Below are positions 6,895-45,977 of a stretch of DNA of 64,000 bases, piece after piece (the first letter of the stretch is position 1; every line of letters starts with the position of its first letter). A model generated the notes under the pieces. It was not told the DNA's origin and did no database searches. It was given only the letters and a program-made list of their open reading frames with translations. The position numbers and the translations under genes were made by a program. Source of the DNA: Aliiglaciecola sp. M165 (GTDB taxonomy: Bacteria > Pseudomonadota > Gammaproteobacteria > Enterobacterales > Alteromonadaceae); the NCBI RefSeq assembly GCF_007197995.1, contig NZ_VKKH01000001.1:434001-498000 (forward strand). Direction: 5' to 3'.

Positions 6895-8085
6895 ATGACG
6901 GAAAAAGATAATCGCACTTCCCACGAGGAAGAAATGAAAGCCCTCGAAAAAGAGAATGCGTCTTATATCGAAGAGAAAGTTGTGGAAAAACAAAAAACCA
7001 CTGTGGAGGAAAAACAGCCAGCACCGGCCTTTTCAGAATCTGCCAAAAGCAATTCAAACGAGAGTATTCAGCCAGCAAAAACCAAAACCGGAGGGTTATG
7101 GTTTGTTAGCTTATTGAACTTCATATTATTGTTGGTTGCAGTCGCTGCCGGATATTGGTTTTGGCAACAGTGGCAAGCGGAACTGCAAAACAAAGATGAT
7201 TCTGTACTGACTCAACAAAATGCGTTGAATGCACAGAATCGTTTAATCGAAACTCTGCAAGCAGAATCTGCTGCACAAGCGCAAAATTTTCAACGTCAAG
7301 TAGAATTGCTTAAAGGACAAATCGATATTGCAGCCGAACAAGCCGCTGCAAACAGTCGGAACCTGGCAGATGTGTCAGGTCGTAGACCGTCTGATTGGCT
7401 GCTTGCTGAAGCTGATTATTTGGTCAGAATGGCCGGACGCAAATTGTGGTTAGAAAGTGATGTAAGAACTGCCATCGCCATGCTGCAATCGGCAGACAGT
7501 CGATTGCAAGATCTGGCCGATCCTTCGTTACTAAATGTAAGAAGGCTGATTGCCACTGACATTCAAACGCTTCAACAAATAAATCCAACATCCTTAACCT
7601 CTGTTGCGCTTGCACTATCTGGCATGGTCGCACAGGTGTCTAATTTACCCTTGTCGCTTCCAGAAGTTGAAGTTCAAGGCCCAGCGGTTGAACAACTGAC
7701 TGGATTGGAAAGAGTGTTGCGCTACATCACCGACAACTTTAAGTACCAACCTAACTCACAACCCATGAAACCACTGCTTTCAGCCCAACAACAGTGGTTG
7801 GCCAGAGAACAGCTTCGGTATGCACTGCTCCAGGCACAAGCCGCAGTGACAAAGGAGCAGGAAACCCTGTTCAGACAGAGTATACAAAATGCAATTGGCA
7901 TGCTGGTTCAGCATTTTGATTTAGAAGACATCGCTGTTGAGCAATTTATTGGTAGTTTGCAAAATATAGAAAATACACCCGTAGACAAAAACTATCCGCA
8001 AACATTAAATGCCGCTCAGCCCCTTCAAGACGTTCTAGAAAATAGGATGCGTAACGTATTTTCTAATGGGAAGTTTGAACTATGA
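6895..8085 (+). CDS. hemX: HemX-like membrane protein of the haem operon
   Basis: 396 residues. A charged, glutamate- and lysine-rich cytoplasmic N-terminus of about 65 residues precedes one transmembrane helix (about 70-92), then a periplasmic, alanine/glutamine-rich coiled coil and a helical domain with the family features RRPSDWLLAEADYLVRMAGRKLWLE. Proteobacterial HemX was once labelled a uroporphyrinogen methyltransferase, but it lacks that fold; its real role in tetrapyrrole synthesis is unproven. It overlaps hemY by four bases (ATGA), so the two are translationally coupled. Confidence 0.9.
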   Translation: MTEKDNRTSHEEEMKALEKENASYIEEKVVEKQKTTVEEKQPAPAFSESAKSNSNESIQPAKTKTGGLWFVSLLNFILLLVAVAAGYWFWQQWQAELQNKDDSVLTQQNALNAQNRLIETLQAESAAQAQNFQRQVELLKGQIDIAAEQAAANSRNLADVSGRRPSDWLLAEADYLVRMAGRKLWLESDVRTAIAMLQSADSRLQDLADPSLLNVRRLIATDIQTLQQINPTSLTSVALALSGMVAQVSNLPLSLPEVEVQGPAVEQLTGLERVLRYITDNFKYQPNSQPMKPLLSAQQQWLAREQLRYALLQAQAAVTKEQETLFRQSIQNAIGMLVQHFDLEDIAVEQFIGSLQNIENTPVDKNYPQTLNAAQPLQDVLENRMRNVFSNGKFEL

Positions 8086-9245
8086 AAAAGATCGTTCTGC
8101 TACTTCTCATTATTGCCATCGTTATCACCGGATTAGCGTTAGGGCCGGCATTCGTTGACTACGATGGGTACTTTCTCATTGCATTGGAAAGCGGCACGTA
8201 TCAGCTTTCTATATTTGGATTTGTTGTTGCTTTGGTGACCCTGTTTTTAGTGTTGTGGCTAAGTATTTTAATTATCAAAAAAATCATTGATGTTTTAGCT
8301 GGCTCACAAGATTGGTTATTTGGTTTTAGTCGTCGCCGAAAACAAAAAGCCTTTACTCAAGGCCTTATCTCACTCGCAGAGGGAAACGTTGAAAAAGCGC
8401 AGAAATCTTTGAACAAAATTGTTGGTGAAGATTTTGATGGTTTAAATCTGCTTGCACTAGCCGAAGCGGAAACTCAACTAGGAAATAAAAACAGAGCAAG
8501 AGAGATTTGGATCTCGGCTGCACAAATACCAGAAACAGCACTTGCTGCGCATTTAAGTATCTGCAAAGATTTCATCTTAGAGAACAAATGTGAGCAAGCA
8601 CTTACATACATAAATGGATTAGATGACAAGATCCAAGATGAAATTGCGATTATTAAATTGTGGGCGCGATGCTTAGATGAAACTAGCAAATACTCTGTAC
8701 TTAAACAGAAACTACCAAAATGGAAAAAGGTGTTAGGCAAGGATTATGACTATTGGTCACTCATTGCCTCTAAGGGAGAATTTGCAGAAGTCGCTAGCAA
8801 AGACGGTGCAAATCAACTAAAAAGAATGTGGCAATCCTTGCCAAGGAGCACCCGAAAAGAGCCAGGGCAAATCGCAGCCTATGCACAACAATTGATCGAT
8901 CAAGGCATGCACGAAGACGCACAAATCGTATTAGTTGAATCACAAAAATCGACCCCCAACCCACTTCTTTACGGACTTTATCGCCAGCTTAAAAACGTAC
9001 AAACCAACAAGGCAATAAAACAACTTGAGTCTTGGTTAAAACACGATGATAAAAATGTCGACATGCTGTCTACATTAGGCCAATTGGCGTACAACTTGGA
9101 TGACAATTTGTTGGCAGAAAAAGCATTATCTAAAGCCATTAAGTTGTCGAACGAAAAACGTGATGTTTTATTATTAGCTCAGATTAAAGAAGCTCAAAAA
9201 GACAATATTCACGCCTTAGAGTTATACAAAAAATCGGCGCTATAG
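8082..9245 (+). CDS. hemY: HemY-like inner-membrane TPR protein of the haem operon
   Basis: 387 residues. Two transmembrane helices occupy the first 65 residues (LLLLIIAIVITGLALG and GFVVALVTLFLVLWLSILI), followed by the HemY_N region (FGFSRRRKQKAFTQGLISLAEGN) and TPR-like helical repeats to the end, including LSTLGQLAYNLDDNLLAEKALSKAI. This is the gammaproteobacterial HemY, not the protoporphyrinogen oxidase of that name in Bacillus. Its biochemical role is not established. It ends the hem operon; no clear terminator follows. Confidence 0.9.
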   Translation: MKKIVLLLLIIAIVITGLALGPAFVDYDGYFLIALESGTYQLSIFGFVVALVTLFLVLWLSILIIKKIIDVLAGSQDWLFGFSRRRKQKAFTQGLISLAEGNVEKAQKSLNKIVGEDFDGLNLLALAEAETQLGNKNRAREIWISAAQIPETALAAHLSICKDFILENKCEQALTYINGLDDKIQDEIAIIKLWARCLDETSKYSVLKQKLPKWKKVLGKDYDYWSLIASKGEFAEVASKDGANQLKRMWQSLPRSTRKEPGQIAAYAQQLIDQGMHEDAQIVLVESQKSTPNPLLYGLYRQLKNVQTNKAIKQLESWLKHDDKNVDMLSTLGQLAYNLDDNLLAEKALSKAIKLSNEKRDVLLLAQIKEAQKDNIHALELYKKSAL

Positions 9246-9262
9246 GATTTAGTAAAATTTTT

Positions 9263-9321
9263 GTATCAATCACTACTTTAACATCGCACCTGCTCTTCTC
9301 TATTTTTGTAGTGACTGATAC
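9263..9321. promoter_or_regulatory. 14-bp inverted repeat between hemY and the TetR gene
   Basis: GTATCAATCACTAC (9263-9276) and GTAGTGACTGATAC (9308-9321) are complementary at 13 of 14 positions with 31 bases between them. It could be an mRNA stem-loop at the end of the hem operon or paired binding half-sites for the downstream regulator. No T-tract follows, so a simple rho-independent terminator is unlikely. Confidence 0.45.
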
Positions 9322-9398
9322 ATTATATTACCTAAACATTTGACTTAGTTTACGCTTTTTCTCAAACAAATCCTCCACAAACATTGAAATTAATGTTT

Positions 9399-9416
9399 TT
9401 GTATCGTTTAATACAA
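9399..9416. promoter_or_regulatory. Candidate TetR-type operator
   Basis: The 18-bp palindrome TTGTATCGTTTAATACAA has perfect 6-bp arms around a 6-bp centre and lies 31 bases before the GTG start of the TetR family gene. Autorepression from such palindromes is the rule in this family. Assignment is by position and symmetry only. Confidence 0.5.
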
Positions 9417-9447
9417 TAACATTTTGCAATCCAACAGGATTTAAGTA

Positions 9448-10032
9448 GTGAGCACTACAAATTTAAAAGTTGCACGAGGTCGCCCTAGAAAGCTTGATAG
9501 GGAAAATGGATTGGCGGCCTGTTTATTGCTTTTCCAAAAATACGGTTATGAGAATGTGTCAATCGCAGAATTATGTGAAACCTTGAATGTTCCGCCTACC
9601 AGCATTTATTCTACTTTCGGAAATAAAGAATCACTCTTTAAACTCGCCTATCAAAAATATGTTAGTAATTTTTTTGAGTCATTAGAAGACACATTATCGA
9701 AATCAAAAAATGCCTCTGAGATGTTTAGAAATGTGCTGGAATTTTCATTGGAATTCTACTTGGTTCGCAATCAAAAAATGGGTTGCTTAATGTTACAAGG
9801 ACAATCTTTTTGTAGAAATGAAAATTTGCGAGTTGAAATATTACATTCAATAGAGAGGCTAAAAGAAACGCTCAAAAATCGATTTATACAACTTGAATCA
9901 GAAAACCCGAATGAATTAACAGATGTATTGATCACTCTAATGAATGGTTTTTCTCTATCTACTCAAACGGAAGAGGATGAAGATTCCTTGTATACCTCAA
10001 TGGAGTTTTTCTGTTCGGCATTTGACTGTTAA
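9448..10032 (+). CDS. TetR/AcrR family transcriptional regulator
   Basis: 194 residues. The N-terminus ARGRPRKLDRENGL leads into the TetR helix-turn-helix, with the recognition-helix region TSIYSTFGNKESLFKLA near residues 50-65. The C-terminal ligand domain contains GCLMLQGQSF, similar in style to the AefR/NemR-like group, but the ligand is unknown. The start is a GTG with only a weak ribosome-binding site (CAGGA); no better start lies nearby. It sits alone between the hem operon and tRNA-Arg, with candidate operator palindromes upstream, so it is probably autoregulated. No adjacent efflux or reductase gene reveals a target. Confidence 0.87.
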   Translation: MSTTNLKVARGRPRKLDRENGLAACLLLFQKYGYENVSIAELCETLNVPPTSIYSTFGNKESLFKLAYQKYVSNFFESLEDTLSKSKNASEMFRNVLEFSLEFYLVRNQKMGCLMLQGQSFCRNENLRVEILHSIERLKETLKNRFIQLESENPNELTDVLITLMNGFSLSTQTEEDEDSLYTSMEFFCSAFDC

Positions 10033-10267
10033 CAGCATTAGGTGCTTGCCGTTCGTAAAAAAAATCACGGCGTATTTGCAACGCTTAAGATAGTGTTTTG
10101 AGAGGATCCAAAGATTTAGGGCATCTAAACAGCTAACTATCAAATAATATTTTTGTTTGTTAGTACTTACTTTACTATATTTTGATTCACGGCATATTCT
10201 TATAAAAATAAAAGTGGAAAATGGCTGACAATTCATTAGAATCACCGCACTTCAATCATTGAAGTAC

Positions 10268-10344
10268 GCACCCTTAGCTCAGCTGGATAGAGCGTCGCCC
10301 TCCGGAGGCGAAGGTCGCAGGTTCGAATCCTGCAGGGTGCGCCA
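10268..10344 (+). tRNA. tRNA-Arg (anticodon CCG), CCA encoded
   Basis: A complete 77-nt cloverleaf: acceptor GCACCCT/AGGGTGC with discriminator G and encoded CCA, D-arm GCTC...GAGC, anticodon stem TCGCC/GGCGA with loop CTCCGGA (anticodon CCG), and T-arm GCAGG TTCGAAT CCTGC. It reads CGG arginine codons. Its 3' end from 10312 is repeated at 12441-12476, marking it as the attachment site of the hipBA insert. A short palindrome CCATTT/AAATGG overlaps the CCA end and may aid termination. Confidence 0.97.
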
Positions 10345-10347
10345 TTT
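10312..10347 (+). repeat. Direct repeat, left copy (attachment-site-like, tRNA-Arg 3' end)
   Basis: 36 bases, from AGGTCGCAGG through the T-arm and acceptor to GCGCCATTT, are identical to 12441-12476. Allowing two mismatches the match extends left to 10304 (44 bases). The repeat covers the T-loop and 3' end of the tRNA, the region typically used as the attachment site by tyrosine integrases, and rebuilds an intact tRNA on the left side of the insert. Confidence 0.9.
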
Positions 10348-10531
10348 TTTAAATGGTCTAAAGCCGGATTTCCTCTCCGCAAAATTCCTTTTTTAAATAT
10401 GTGGCAAATGTGTAGTATGAAATGTTCTTGATACTTGCTAATAACCAATAAGGTTTTAACTAAGTTGATCCTCATTGTCGGATGATGGAGCATTCAGCCA
10501 ATAACAGGGCATGAGATAAAAAAGCTGTACG

Positions 10532-11845
10532 TTATCCTTTTAGAAAGTTCGTTATTTTGCGCAAGCAAGTCAGTGTGCGCTCGGTTAGTACCTCCCCAAC
10601 CCCCATATCAAAGAGATCATTCGCTTGCTTAAGAGAAGTATTCAGAGCGGACTCTATCTTGTTATCCAAGTAAGCCATGATGGCAAGTGTTTGATCCTCA
10701 TCTATCCCCTGCTTTTTGCCGTGCTCTGGCCAGTGCCTCGCCATAATTTCGTTCCATTTGTAGTGTGTATTCTTACTATGGACTTTCATTGCCATCTTTA
10801 TTTTTTTTGCCTGGATATTTCCTTGCCCGAAATAGGGGTAAGCACTTAACACATCATAAAAGGGCGTTAACCGGTAACCATCCTGATTTAGCGCAATGCT
10901 AAAGTTCTTTCCATGCCCATCAACCGCAGCAAGTAACCAAAATACGATTTGCACACGCAAAAATTCGAGTCTATCTTCGTATGCGTTTTTTGAGCCAGAC
11001 AGAAGCTGCATAACTTGCTGAGAACCTGGGCCACCCTTTTCCTCATACTTTGAACCACTCACTTTCCCTAATGCTTGACAGATATCCTCCTGGGGAAGTC
11101 GGAAAATAGTGTCTTCCTCGATTCTGCGATCAAATCGTTCCACCACCAGTACTCTCTGATCCTCAAACTGCGCAATTTCACAATTTGCGACAACCAAACC
11201 GAGGTTTTTCATAAACCTCTGGCAGAACCATTCGTTGTCTACACTCGAAGATAAGTCTATTCCCAAGCTTTCATGATGAAGAATGGGCGGCTTGAATATA
11301 TGCGTGGTTGGCGTTGAGCCATGCGGTCGGCACCAATTTCCTTCCCATAAGGTTAGTGCTGTCTTTTCCTGAGCACCAGCAAGAGAAATTCTGAAGTCAT
11401 CATCTGAATTCATACCCAACATTTTCTCAAGGCGAGTTTCTCTGATAATTTGTGCGACTCCACCCTCAGACAATTTCGAGAGCGACAGCGCAGGCATTTC
11501 TCCTGTTGCAGATTCTTCTGCGAATGTGAGCGCACCCACACAATCTTTTCCAACTTTGGCCAGCAAGTCGAAGGGCTTAGCACTATCTGCACCTAAACGG
11601 TCTTTCATATGCTCTCTGATAGCGCTTGTATCCGGCAGTAAGTTGTCAAAATAAGCATGAACAGCATCGCCCAATATCTCTGCTTTTTGCATGGGCAGGC
11701 TTAGGGAGATAGCACGGCCGCCCTCTACTTCTAACCACTCTGTGGCGTACTTAAAGCTCATACGCCCTTTTTTTAAATACAACTCACCTACTGGAAATCC
11801 GTTCATGGAGCAATAGAGCGTTCGAGTATGTGATTTTCGTCCCAT
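10532..11845 (-). CDS. hipA: HipA toxin, serine/threonine kinase of a type II toxin-antitoxin pair
   Basis: 437 residues, nearly the same length as E. coli HipA (440). Key kinase features align in position: the loop SLAGAQEKTA holding the autophosphorylated Ser at residue 154, the ATP-binding Lys in HIFKPP (185), the catalytic Asp in VDGHGKNFS (309) and the metal-binding Asp in FYDVLSAYP (331). HipA phosphorylates glutamyl-tRNA synthetase in E. coli, halting translation and producing persisters; the target here is not shown. All catalytic residues seem intact, so the toxin is probably functional. Its ATG shares one base with the hipB stop (TAATG), so it is translationally coupled. The module lies inside a repeat-bounded insert at tRNA-Arg. 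Confidence 0.95.
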   Translation of the reverse strand: MGRKSHTRTLYCSMNGFPVGELYLKKGRMSFKYATEWLEVEGGRAISLSLPMQKAEILGDAVHAYFDNLLPDTSAIREHMKDRLGADSAKPFDLLAKVGKDCVGALTFAEESATGEMPALSLSKLSEGGVAQIIRETRLEKMLGMNSDDDFRISLAGAQEKTALTLWEGNWCRPHGSTPTTHIFKPPILHHESLGIDLSSSVDNEWFCQRFMKNLGLVVANCEIAQFEDQRVLVVERFDRRIEEDTIFRLPQEDICQALGKVSGSKYEEKGGPGSQQVMQLLSGSKNAYEDRLEFLRVQIVFWLLAAVDGHGKNFSIALNQDGYRLTPFYDVLSAYPYFGQGNIQAKKIKMAMKVHSKNTHYKWNEIMARHWPEHGKKQGIDEDQTLAIMAYLDNKIESALNTSLKQANDLFDMGVGEVLTERTLTCLRKITNFLKG

Positions 11846-12111
11846 TAGAATCTCAGTGATTTTTTCGCGAGTGAAGTAGTCAGTATGGCCCCTTCATCTT
11901 TGGGCAGATTGCTGACCTTAAACTCCAACTCTAATGCCGCACACAGTCTGATGAGCATATCGACCGAGACTTTTTCAGGCTTGGTTTCACAGTTAGAAAT
12001 ATCTCTTTGATATACGCCTATGCGTTTTGCCAAATCGGCTTGAGTCCAGCCCTTGAGCTTTCGACTGTCCCTGATAACGGCGCTTAGGTCTTTCGGCGTG
12101 TTAATTTTCAT
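11845..12111 (-). CDS. hipB: HipB antitoxin, XRE-type DNA-binding repressor
   Basis: 88 residues, the same length as E. coli HipB. A helix-turn-helix of the Cro/C1 type covers about residues 10-65 (KGWTQADLAKRIGVYQRDISNCE with its recognition helix near 32-41). A short beta strand (LEFKVSNL), used for dimerisation in HipB, and a basic tail ending LAKKSLRF follow. It should neutralise HipA and repress the operon. Directly upstream lie five 27-bp operator-like units of the form TTTATAC-N8-GTATAAA, matching the half-site/8-bp-spacer form of the E. coli HipB operator. It is degraded by Lon in E. coli; this cannot be judged here. Confidence 0.93.
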   Translation of the reverse strand: MKINTPKDLSAVIRDSRKLKGWTQADLAKRIGVYQRDISNCETKPEKVSVDMLIRLCAALELEFKVSNLPKDEGAILTTSLAKKSLRF

Positions 12112-12119
12112 ATCAGTCT

Positions 12120-12249
12120 TTTATACACAAAAATGGATAAAATCACTTTATACTAAAATATGTATAAAGCAAGTTTATACAGATTTTGGCATAAAATTAG
12201 AATATACGAAATTTTGTATAAATTGCATTTATGCAGGATTCTATATATG
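12120..12249. promoter_or_regulatory. Array of five HipB-operator-like palindromes at 27-bp period
   Basis: Units start at 12120, 12147, 12174, 12201 and 12228. Each has the form TTTATAC-N8-GTATAAA: unit 2 is a perfect inverted repeat, unit 1 ends GGATAAA, unit 3 ends GCATAAA, unit 4 begins AATATAC, and unit 5 (TTTATGC...ATATATG) is degenerate. The first unit begins nine bases upstream of the hipB ATG, so the array covers the promoter region. E. coli HipB binds TATCC-N8-GGATA sites, and the same 8-bp spacer here makes HipB the natural ligand. Assignment is by inference; the sequence pattern itself is exact. Confidence 0.85.
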
Positions 12250-12253
12250 ACGA

Positions 12254-12327
12254 TTAAATTGGTCGATAGTGAAGCCACTTCTTTAACCCAAATGTGACCA
12301 AGACCGATTTAACCGGCCTTAAGTGGC
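12254..12327. repeat. Two interlocked inverted repeats inside the tRNA insert
   Basis: TTAAATTGGTC (12254-12264) pairs with GACCGATTTAA (12302-12312) at 10 of 11 positions, and GCCACTT (12274-12280) pairs with AAGTGGC (12321-12327). The pairs interlock rather than nest. They lie in a non-coding stretch between the hipB operators and the right repeat, where recombinase arm sites or a structured element might sit. Function unknown. Confidence 0.4.
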
Positions 12328-12440
12328 GATTTTAGACATACGCTAAATAAATCGTAACTTACTGTAATTACTATTTTTATGCGGTTTTCGCCATTTCATC
12401 CCTAGCTAAAACATTTCGCTGGGGTGCTGTGAGGAGGCAG

Positions 12441-12476
12441 AGGTCGCAGGTTCGAATCCTGCAGGGTGCGCCATTT
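12441..12476 (+). repeat. Direct repeat, right copy (attachment-site-like, tRNA-Arg 3' fragment)
   Basis: An exact 36-base copy of the tRNA-Arg 3' end (T-arm, acceptor 3' strand, CCA and ATTT), preceded by a partial match to the anticodon stem (GGAGGC at 12433-12438). It lacks the 5' half of a tRNA and cannot be a gene. It marks the right boundary of a 2,129-base segment that carries only hipBA. Confidence 0.9.
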
Positions 12477-12857
12477 ATTTCAATCTTGACTGTTGCTATT
12501 GTCTAAAACTAGATTTTCTACGCGTATTGAATCACCACTAATTTCCTAGATACACCCGAATTAAATATATTTACCGTTTCACTCTGCCACTAAGATTTTG
12601 GGCGACTTTTTTGAAATGGCTTTGATTCTAGCTAGATCTCCCTAATCTCATATGATTCAACTCGACTGTTTTTTAGCCAGTGTGTGTTGAAGCGTTCCCG
12701 TGATGTGAAAACCACAGCGGCAATCCACCAAAATTAGGAAACATTCAGAATTATGCATTCAAAATAGTTTGCTTTAAAAATTATCTTGGCCCTATGCTAA
12801 CCTTGAACATACGCAGAGAATGATGTGGCTGCATCGCAAGCGAGGCTGATTAAAACT
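12477..12857. other. Intergenic stretch right of the insert
   Basis: No coding region, RNA gene or repeat is recognisable. A possible promoter for the next gene is TTGCTT (12769-12774), an 18-base spacer and TATGCT (12793-12798), which fits sigma-70 moderately well. Confidence 0.4.
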
Positions 12858-16471: not shown

Positions 16472-17995
16472 ATGACGACATTGGTACTGTGTTTTGATGG
16501 AACCTGGAACAACATGGAGCAGGAAGACAATGGCAATATAGCCCCAACTAATGTCGTCAAGTTCTACCACTCGCTGAGTGATAAAGATAGTGAAGGAAAT
16601 CCTATCAAAAAATTCTATCACCCTGGCCTTGGTGGTGAAGATATTGGATTGAAGGCAAAAATTGTCGACGGTGCTATGGGAGCCAGTATTGGTGATCATA
16701 TCTCCACTGGCTTTAAGTGGATTTGCGATAACTATCAAAGCGGTGATCAAATTTGCATAGTCGGTTTCAGCCGTGGTGCATTCACTGCTCGTTCGCTAGC
16801 TGGGATGCTAAGCGCAGGTGTAATGAAAACCAGCGCATTGTCAGTGGAACAAACCTGGAAACAGATTAAATCTCTTTACGCGCTTTATACTAAAGGCAAA
16901 TTGAACGAGGCCCCTACTGATTGGTTTGTGACCGATAGCAGTAGCATACAGTTTTTGGGCGTGTGGGACACGGTTGGCGCCTTGGGCGTTCCCAATGAAT
17001 TTGGTTTGCTCAATATTTTTGATAATAAAAAGAAGTGGCAGTTTCACAATACCGCATTGGGTGACCATGTCAAAGTTGCCCGGCACGCAATGGCCATGGA
17101 TGAGATCCGAAGCAGTTTTACCGTCACGCAATGGAGTAATGCTCATACCCATGCGGATGCTAAGCAGATTTGGTTTCCAGGTGTTCATTCTGACGTGGGT
17201 GGTGGCTACGAGGATTGTGAATTATCCGATTTAGCGCTTGCCTGGATGATCGAAGAAGGAGCTGGGGCTAGCTTACAATTTAGAAATGAAGTGGCTGTCT
17301 CAGGTGATGCCAATGGCAGCCTGCACAATTCTTACAAAGGGATTTTTGCAAAAATGCGCTCACGTCCCCGAAATGTGCCTGAAGTGTCTCCTGCAAATAG
17401 TCATTTGTTCCACCCTTCAGTTTTTGCACGTCAGGCTAATAATCCGATTAAATATGGTCCTTATTGGCCTACTACTCACTTAGAGATTGGTGAATTCACT
17501 GAAATCGAAATATTTGCAAAACATAAATGGAATGCAATGAATTTGTTCTTATCTCAAGGAGAAGAATACGAGTTTAGCAGCCGAGGAGAGTGGGTGGACA
17601 AAACCGACAGTTGCGATTGGCGCGGAACTGAACGAGATGATTACACCATTGGCGATGCAGTAAGGTCTGCAGCATCATTTTTTGGTAAGTTTGAGGGGCT
17701 CTTTAATTCAGCAACGAATAACAAGGAATATGACATACCTTTCACCAAACGTCTGGAAAAAATAGACTGGTTCGCGGCAGTAGGCTGTATTGCCAATGAC
17801 AGCGGAGTGAAGCGCGCCGCAGGTAACGATGGTAGCCCAACACCTCATAAATATTTTGCCATGGCTGACCATCAACAAAACAAATCTTTTAGAGTTGATA
17901 ACTCTGGATATTTGTACGCGTTTGCAAACGACGGTTGGGCGTTTTATGACAATAATAAAGGCAGCGTATTAATCACTGTTAAACGTGTTGCGTGA
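16472..17995 (+). CDS. DUF2235 alpha/beta-hydrolase (Tle1-like phospholipase family)
   Basis: 507 residues. The N-terminal TTLVLCFDGTWNNME is the DUF2235 hallmark. The nucleophile elbow is GFSRGAF at residues 98-104 (Ser100), the acid lies in FLGVWDTVGALG, and the His in WFPGVHSDVGGGY. This family includes type VI secretion phospholipases (Tle1) and stand-alone hydrolases. The C-terminal 90 residues form a separate beta-rich part ending with YAFANDGWAFYDNNKGSV. There is no signal peptide. AAGGAAG precedes the ATG. A PP2C phosphatase begins 34 bases downstream, probably in the same operon. No other type VI genes are present in the window. Confidence 0.88.
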   Translation: MTTLVLCFDGTWNNMEQEDNGNIAPTNVVKFYHSLSDKDSEGNPIKKFYHPGLGGEDIGLKAKIVDGAMGASIGDHISTGFKWICDNYQSGDQICIVGFSRGAFTARSLAGMLSAGVMKTSALSVEQTWKQIKSLYALYTKGKLNEAPTDWFVTDSSSIQFLGVWDTVGALGVPNEFGLLNIFDNKKKWQFHNTALGDHVKVARHAMAMDEIRSSFTVTQWSNAHTHADAKQIWFPGVHSDVGGGYEDCELSDLALAWMIEEGAGASLQFRNEVAVSGDANGSLHNSYKGIFAKMRSRPRNVPEVSPANSHLFHPSVFARQANNPIKYGPYWPTTHLEIGEFTEIEIFAKHKWNAMNLFLSQGEEYEFSSRGEWVDKTDSCDWRGTERDDYTIGDAVRSAASFFGKFEGLFNSATNNKEYDIPFTKRLEKIDWFAAVGCIANDSGVKRAAGNDGSPTPHKYFAMADHQQNKSFRVDNSGYLYAFANDGWAFYDNNKGSVLITVKRVA

Positions 17996-45893: not shown

Positions 45894-45977
45894 TAGATTC
45901 CAGATCAAAAGCGTTTCTGGAATGACGTGGTTTTGTAGATTCCAGACCAAGAGCGTTTCTGAAATGACGTGGTGATT
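45894..45977. repeat. Two tandem 42-bp palindromic (REP-like) units
   Basis: Two direct copies of a 42-base unit start at 45894 and 45936 and differ at about seven positions. Each unit holds an inverted repeat: ATTCCAGA and TCTGGAAT (imperfect in the second copy: TCTGAAAT) about the spacer CAAAAGCGT/CAAGAGCGT, followed by GACGTGGT. The second copy runs into the mutM stop. The form and the location between convergent coaD and mutM fit a repetitive extragenic palindrome. Confidence 0.8.

Follow-up and report, generated by a model that had tools for sequence, protein, structure and literature searches.

The hipBA locus and its surroundings

The window analysed here, a 64,000-nt stretch of the Aliiglaciecola sp. 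M165 genome, carries on its reverse strand a two-gene module of the HipB-HipA type, preceded by five evenly spaced palindromes and enclosed by two copies of a tRNA-Arg 3' end (Table 1). The genes downstream of the array had been read as hipB and hipA in the initial annotation, and matches to Pfam families and to the E. coli structures bear this out. The HipA chain combines an N-terminal Couple_hipA domain (Pfam E 6.9e-25) with a C-terminal HipA_C domain, and the small Cro/Xre-type hipB gene lies directly upstream of hipA with a 1-base overlap, the arrangement of E. coli-type modules. An alignment to 2wiu shows G and D in the window HipA at the two positions altered in E. coli hipA7 (G22 and D291), and also retention of the stretch DFRIS.AGAQEKTA, whose serine we take to be the autophosphorylation site of HipA.

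The antitoxin scores 48.2 bits against the NCBIfam HipB equivalog model, below its cut-off of 79. It ends in LRF, with a phenylalanine in the place of the C-terminal tryptophan of E. coli-type HipB, and the HipBs of the close clade likewise end in LRF or LGF. This tryptophan (W88) is termed universally conserved in PMC3376134, a statement based on selected HipBs, so that its absence is no bar to family membership. We regard the phenylalanine ending as the mark of a variant and do not take it as excluding the protein from the family. Elsewhere in the same genome, a second HipA-family gene of a different lineage was found with an HTH-like ORF upstream (L001, C27:340466-344185). The window also contains an ORF (16472-17995) that matches the Tle1-like phospholipase effector family of type VI secretion systems (Pfam PF09994, E 9.7e-73).

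Table 1. Features of the hipBA region, in window coordinates
Feature	Position	Strand	Details
tRNA-Arg (CCG)	10268..10344	+	ARAGORN
att-like direct repeat, 3' end of tRNA-Arg	10304..10350	+	47 nt, 94% identical to 12433-12479
hipA, HipA-family kinase toxin, 437 aa	10532..11845	-	HipA_C E 2.7e-51; E. coli HipA structure 2wiu E 4.5e-96
hipB, Xre/HTH_3 antitoxin, 88 aa	11845..12111	-	HTH_3 E 3.3e-8; E. coli HipB structure 4z5h E 8.6e-10
Operator unit 1 (predicted)	12120..12141	-	consensus 13/14, self-pairs 6/7; nearest hipB, starts at -30 from its start codon
Predicted -10, TAAAGT	12145..12150	-	partner of TTGCTT; the pair brackets unit 2
Operator unit 2 (predicted)	12147..12168	-	consensus 14/14, self-pairs 7/7 (perfect palindrome); -57
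Predicted -35, TTGCTT	12167..12172	-	second-best pair of the window upstream; 16-bp spacer
Operator unit 3 (predicted)	12174..12195	-	consensus 13/14, self-pairs 6/7; -84
Operator unit 4 (predicted)	12201..12222	-	consensus 12/14, self-pairs 5/7; -111
Operator unit 5 (predicted), weak	12228..12249	-	consensus 10/14, self-pairs 3/7; -138
Stretch with GCCACTT/AAGTGGC arms between repeat and array	12274..12327		alignment: common to L005 and L020
Second copy of tRNA-Arg 3' end, opposite side of hipBA	12433..12479	+	47-nt repeat, 94%

A regular array of palindromes

The five units had been described as starting at a step of exactly 27 bp and as matching TTTATAC-N8-GTATAAA or nearly so, and the sequence agrees on both counts (Table 1; consensus scores are matches to this motif, with a maximum of 14, and self-pairs are self-complementary pairs, with a maximum of seven). 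Self-identity of the array reaches 0.60 at a lag of 27 and 0.62 at a lag of 54, and stays at or below 0.46 at the remaining lags between 5 and 60. Generic repeat finders run on the window missed the array since its conservation resides mainly in the half-sites, and a dedicated palindrome-and-step test was therefore written. A different repeat lies at 45894-45973, where a 42-bp unit occurs in nearly two copies with 92% identity.

When the array was dinucleotide-shuffled 3000 times, no shuffle reached the summed palindrome score of the five units, 27 of 35, with every start and every step from 22 to 32 allowed. Scanning the 64 kb in 200-bp sliding windows (n=638) gave a three-unit score of 19 at a 26-28-bp step in two windows, both over the array; the best score in the remaining 636 was 14. 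Unit 2 is the sole exact match to the consensus across the 4.6-Mb genome. Scores of at least 10 occur at 47 sites in the window, the five units among them, so unit 5 counts mainly through its register. A search of the genome for a wider regulon found the motif, with up to two mismatches, 36 times in forward orientation including the array versus 45 times in the backward control, that is, no excess outside the array.

Periodic palindromes upstream of related hipB genes

The array can be compared with the upstream regions of many relatives. Relatives of the window HipA were recovered at 16 named loci in a contig search, in 26 of 98 genomes (its own included) and on plasmids, the plasmid sample being six hand-chosen records of 1500 with HipA relatives; a HipB search contributed two of 130 records, E. 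coli L051 and Klebsiella L057. At the DNA level, a similarity search of the 98 genomes with 12050-12300 returned one clear relative besides the own genome, G026. Two more matches near E 1e-3 were judged to be due to chance.

We used the best sum of three palindromic units at a 26-28-bp step as test statistic and compared it with shuffled sequences (300 shuffles for each hipB upstream, 200 for each control). Loci lacking an adequate hipB start were excluded (L015, L025, L027, L032, L033 and L041-L046). Periodic palindromes at p<0.05 were found in 35 of 41 hipB upstreams, the window included, and in one of 44 control upstreams taken from the window; as the sequences are related (the upstreams of L003 and L004 are identical), these counts and p-values overstate the independent support. 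Homologues without periodic palindromes had been named at the outset as the observation that would speak against the operator reading; 34 of the 40 homologue upstreams pass. The six that fail are L028, L031, L038, L056 (p=0.06), L018, whose hipA is broken and which has a single unit remaining, and L017, which was counted as failing from an incorrect start; at its true hipB start there are two units at a 27-bp step, and a three-unit test cannot be passed with these. Averaged over the 41 upstreams, the best three-unit score peaks at steps of 27 (15.2) and 28 (13.7), with 13.0 at step 26 and 11.95-12.78 at the remaining steps from 16 to 45, in means that took L017 and L052 at incorrect starts (the start of L052 is right in the p-value test).

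These data bear on the simplest alternative, a chance periodicity in AT-rich promoter DNA. In its favour, the region has an AT-rich composition and half-sites that look like -10 elements. Both controls, the shuffles and the control upstreams, contradict this explanation, and the step is kept in relatives with other half-sites (TTTAACC in L026, TTTATCC in L057), which leaves it a negligible probability. The array, its regular step, the identity of the genes and the family-wide periodicity are established by computation.

Half-sites follow the recognition helix of HipB

The letters of the half-site differ between groups of relatives and pair with the sequence of the recognition helix in HipB. 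TTTATAC goes with GVYQRDIS, the helix of the window's group, TTTATCC with GIKQATIS or GIKQATLS (E. coli, Klebsiella), TAACC with GIKQTTVS, AATATTC or AATATAC with GKDQRF.S, and both TTTACAC and TTTACCC with GIRQDT.S. A partial Mantel test on 30 non-redundant HipBs relates half-site distance to recognition-helix distance independently of the rest of HipB (r=0.38, p=0.0002); conversely, the relation to the rest of HipB with the helix controlled for is weak (r=0.14, p=0.07). The test left out L018, L028, L037 and L038 as well as HipBs that were 90% or more alike, and used hand-set registers for L051 and L031. Because the half-site covaries with the recognition helix, the comparison points to HipB itself as the protein that would bind the units.

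The step varies less than the letters: the window's group has 27 bp, HipBs of the GKDQRF group have 26 bp, and 28 bp is seen in L029, L030, L039, L040, L051 and L057, as well as in L031 by its hand-set register. If the assignment to HipB is right, the spacing of 26-28 bp between sites is a conserved architectural constraint within which the letters drift together with the antitoxin, and the natural arrays of three, four and five units would make it possible to test what HipA-HipA contacts contribute to keeping the toxin inactive. The pairing of half-sites with recognition helices would then offer an initial table of HipB specificities.

Variation in unit number

A comparison of homologous upstream regions for variation in unit number had been suggested as a check, and the numbers do differ between relatives. 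In the close clade of 15 rows, the number of consecutive in-register units with a score of 9 or more out of 14 is five in the window, L003/L004 and L012, four in L005, L006, L007, L009, L010, L016 and L020, three in L011 and L013, and one in L018; in L008, units 2-6 are in register and unit 1 has decayed. The unit at position 1 scores at least 9 in 14 of the 15 rows, L008 being the exception. Gain and loss of whole 27-bp units is seen in the family. Compared with L011, a near relative, L017 is shorter by exactly 27 bp: the first and third units are retained and the one between them is absent. In L023 neighbouring units are identical together with their linkers. As a separate observation, the Idiomarina loci L017 (2811-2868) and L018 (upstream of 2735) combine a broken hipA with arrays of two units and one unit, respectively, and the hipB of L017 carries an internal deletion.

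For the window itself, the initial annotation had taken the decay from units 1-3 to unit 5 as a sign of growth by tandem duplication. The comparison of units does not support this argument: between the units, linker identity is 0.30 and spacer identity 0.44, where 0.31 is expected from composition. With linkers at chance identity and spacers moderately above it, the window shows hardly any sign, if any, of recent duplication.

The same decay could mean that units 1-3 are the only functional ones and that units 4 and 5 are relics on their way out. Scores drop with distance from hipB, unit 5 retains three of seven self-pairs, and several close relatives have just three or four good units in register. 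Unit 4, however, still matches the consensus at 12 of 14 positions, and in-register units at position 5 are retained in relatives, with scores of 12 in L003/L004, 13 in L008 and 10 in L012. We consider this reading rather unlikely. Unit 5 may be unbound.

Promoter placement and proposed mechanism

Predicted promoters tend to enclose a unit. The best -35/-10 pair was counted as bracketing when it begins 4-6 bp before a unit and has a spacer of 16-18 bp. This is the case in 28 of 38 upstreams (L004, whose upstream is that of L003, L017 and L018 were omitted), against about 11% expected for a random phase; since parts of the AT-rich half-sites look like the -35/-10 consensus, this count may be too high. 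In ten upstreams, the window's included, the best pair does not enclose a unit: in the window the best-scoring pair lies elsewhere (TCGACC at 12266-12261, TAGAAT at 12243-12238). In L003, L004 and L011, the best pair is TTGCTT-16-TAAAAT around the unit that corresponds to window unit 2, and in several Alteromonas relatives the third unit is bracketed instead of the second, with the predicted promoter shifted by 27 bp. Bracketing in most of the relatives tested is established by computation; the window's own promoter is a prediction.

Taking these observations together, we consider it very probable that the array functions as an operator through which the hipBA toxin-antitoxin genes are repressed as outlined here. 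One HipB dimer would bind each 22-bp palindrome, contacting the TTTATAC half-sites on both sides of the 8-bp spacer. Unit 2 lies between the predicted -35 and -10 elements and unit 1 over the predicted transcription start, so their occupancy would block RNA polymerase. Units 3-5 would extend the protein complex upstream, and neighbouring complexes could cooperate, with accompanying bending of the DNA, because the 27-bp step sets a fixed distance and angle between them. Following the E. coli model, HipB-bound HipA would probably act as co-repressor and be kept inactive on the DNA, possibly bridging neighbouring units. This picture draws on descriptions of the E. coli system, where HipB is reported to bind cooperatively to four TATCC-N8-GGATA sites, the HipA-HipB2-HipA complex to bend the operator by 70 degrees, and two-site O1O2 DNA to be bound with a Kd of 0.6 nM (PMC3376134). 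HipA is described as a co-repressor (PMC3920265), and a review states that compromised HipA dimerisation in HipA7 prevents the HipA:HipB:operator complex, which is needed for neutralisation and repression (PMC7180214).

It is conceivable, at somewhat long odds, that HipB binds the units and the constant step reflects only helical phasing or DNA bending, the HipAs on neighbouring units making no contact and the upstream units just raising the local concentration of HipB. At 10.5 bp per turn, 27 bp is about 2.6 turns and 54 bp about 5.1 turns, which would put alternate units on one face of the helix, and E. coli HipB is itself described as a cooperative binder (PMC3376134). Phasing of this kind would, however, permit steps longer or shorter by one full turn, whereas the panel mean over 41 upstreams peaks at 27 and 28 only, and the hipA7 effect is ascribed in PMC7180214 to compromised HipA dimerisation, with the operator complex failing to form. 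At the other extreme, we tentatively entertain a more far-reaching version of the repressing operator, a minority possibility in our view: the array might template a continuous HipA-HipB-DNA filament with HipA pairs between units, so that five units would store up to ten inactive kinases and the unit number would set a threshold for toxin release.

A tRNA-Arg islet around hipBA

The hipBA genes and their array lie within a 2.1-kb islet flanked by the 47-nt direct repeat. The 32-nt core of this repeat occurs exactly at two places in the genome and at one more with three mismatches. The seven congener regions covered, out of eight congeners, keep the order hemY-tetR-tRNA-Arg with a single tRNA tail and no hipA match (one of them, L084, ends 1.3 kb past the tRNA). 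The tRNA 3' end is thus duplicated on both sides of an insert that is absent at this site in these congener regions, and the islet looks like a small integrated element. A search for tyrosine recombinases (PF00589) gave nine matches in the genome and none between the repeats, so an integrase of the islet's own was not found by this search. Perhaps the islet is mobilised in trans, or it is the remnant of a larger element. A small tRNA-flanked hipBA islet without a tyrosine recombinase gene further illustrates the ways in which modules of this kind may move.

Similar settings occur in some relatives. In Alteromonas sp. C1M14 (L005), hipBA lies between 52-bp repeats that are 98% identical, also at a tRNA-Arg. 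G026 (L085) carries tRNA-Arg three times, twice as a gene and once as a partial copy; its hipBA lies between the first of the genes and the partial copy, and past the latter follows a second HipA-like gene. The Idiomarinaceae MAG L011 has a tRNA-Arg and two more tail copies, one of them directly after hipA. The stretch between repeat and array is common to the window, L005 and L020, and in L020 a tRNA-Arg replaces the repeat. The fetched flanks of the remaining close loci showed no paired repeats around hipBA. In L085, positions 7781-12230 hold methyltransferase-HNH and HNH ORFs and the second HipA-like ORF among the tRNA-Arg copies, which suggests an insertion hot spot.

The position of the array between hipB and the att-like repeat raises the question of whether its units belong to the islet, as arm-type sites of an integrase, or to another host factor, and not to HipB. 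Similar arrays, however, precede hipB in loci with no tRNA in the fetched flanks (e.g. L003, L021, L022 and L023) and on plasmids, which lay outside the tRNA scan, and the letters of the array change with the recognition helix of HipB. We hold such an origin to be very improbable.

Comparison with known operators

In the open-licence literature searched, neither a uniform 27-bp array at hipB nor a hipBA islet at tRNA-Arg was found to be described. Legionella hipBST also has operator sites at an even spacing (O1-O3) in front of a HipB gene; this system differs from the window in its gaps of 53 bp, its half-sites of 6 nt, the sequence conservation between half-sites and its three genes (PMC10653801). 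In Caulobacter, the promoter regions of HipA1 and HipA2 are described with three operator sites each, whereas HipA3 is stated to lack palindromic sites (PMC8545095).

The closest parallel is E. coli hipBA, with which the window shares the HipB-HipA pair, N8-spaced palindromes and several sites upstream of hipB. The initial annotation had noted that the 8-bp spacer is the same as in the E. coli sites and that the half-site is different, and this holds (TATAC versus TATCC). The proteins differ correspondingly in their recognition helices (GVYQRDIS in the window, GIKQATIS in E. coli), and E. coli HipB ends in EW, the window HipB in LRF. Neighbouring E. coli sites are 28 bp apart in the printed O1O2 oligonucleotide and, within pairs, in L051, and the five window units repeat at the nearby step of 27 bp. 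A predicted promoter brackets one of the E. coli sites in L051. By analogy, the window array would act like the E. coli operator while being another site. The arrangement of the sites differs as well: in L051 the sites pair up at 28 bp (-140/-112 and -72/-44), the second and third sites being 40 bp apart, whereas the five window units follow each other without a gap in the register. The window array is therefore a known type of operator in extended and uninterrupted form. We regard it as a real and well-supported operator array of the HipB kind, in which length and regularity are new, and not the kind of operator.
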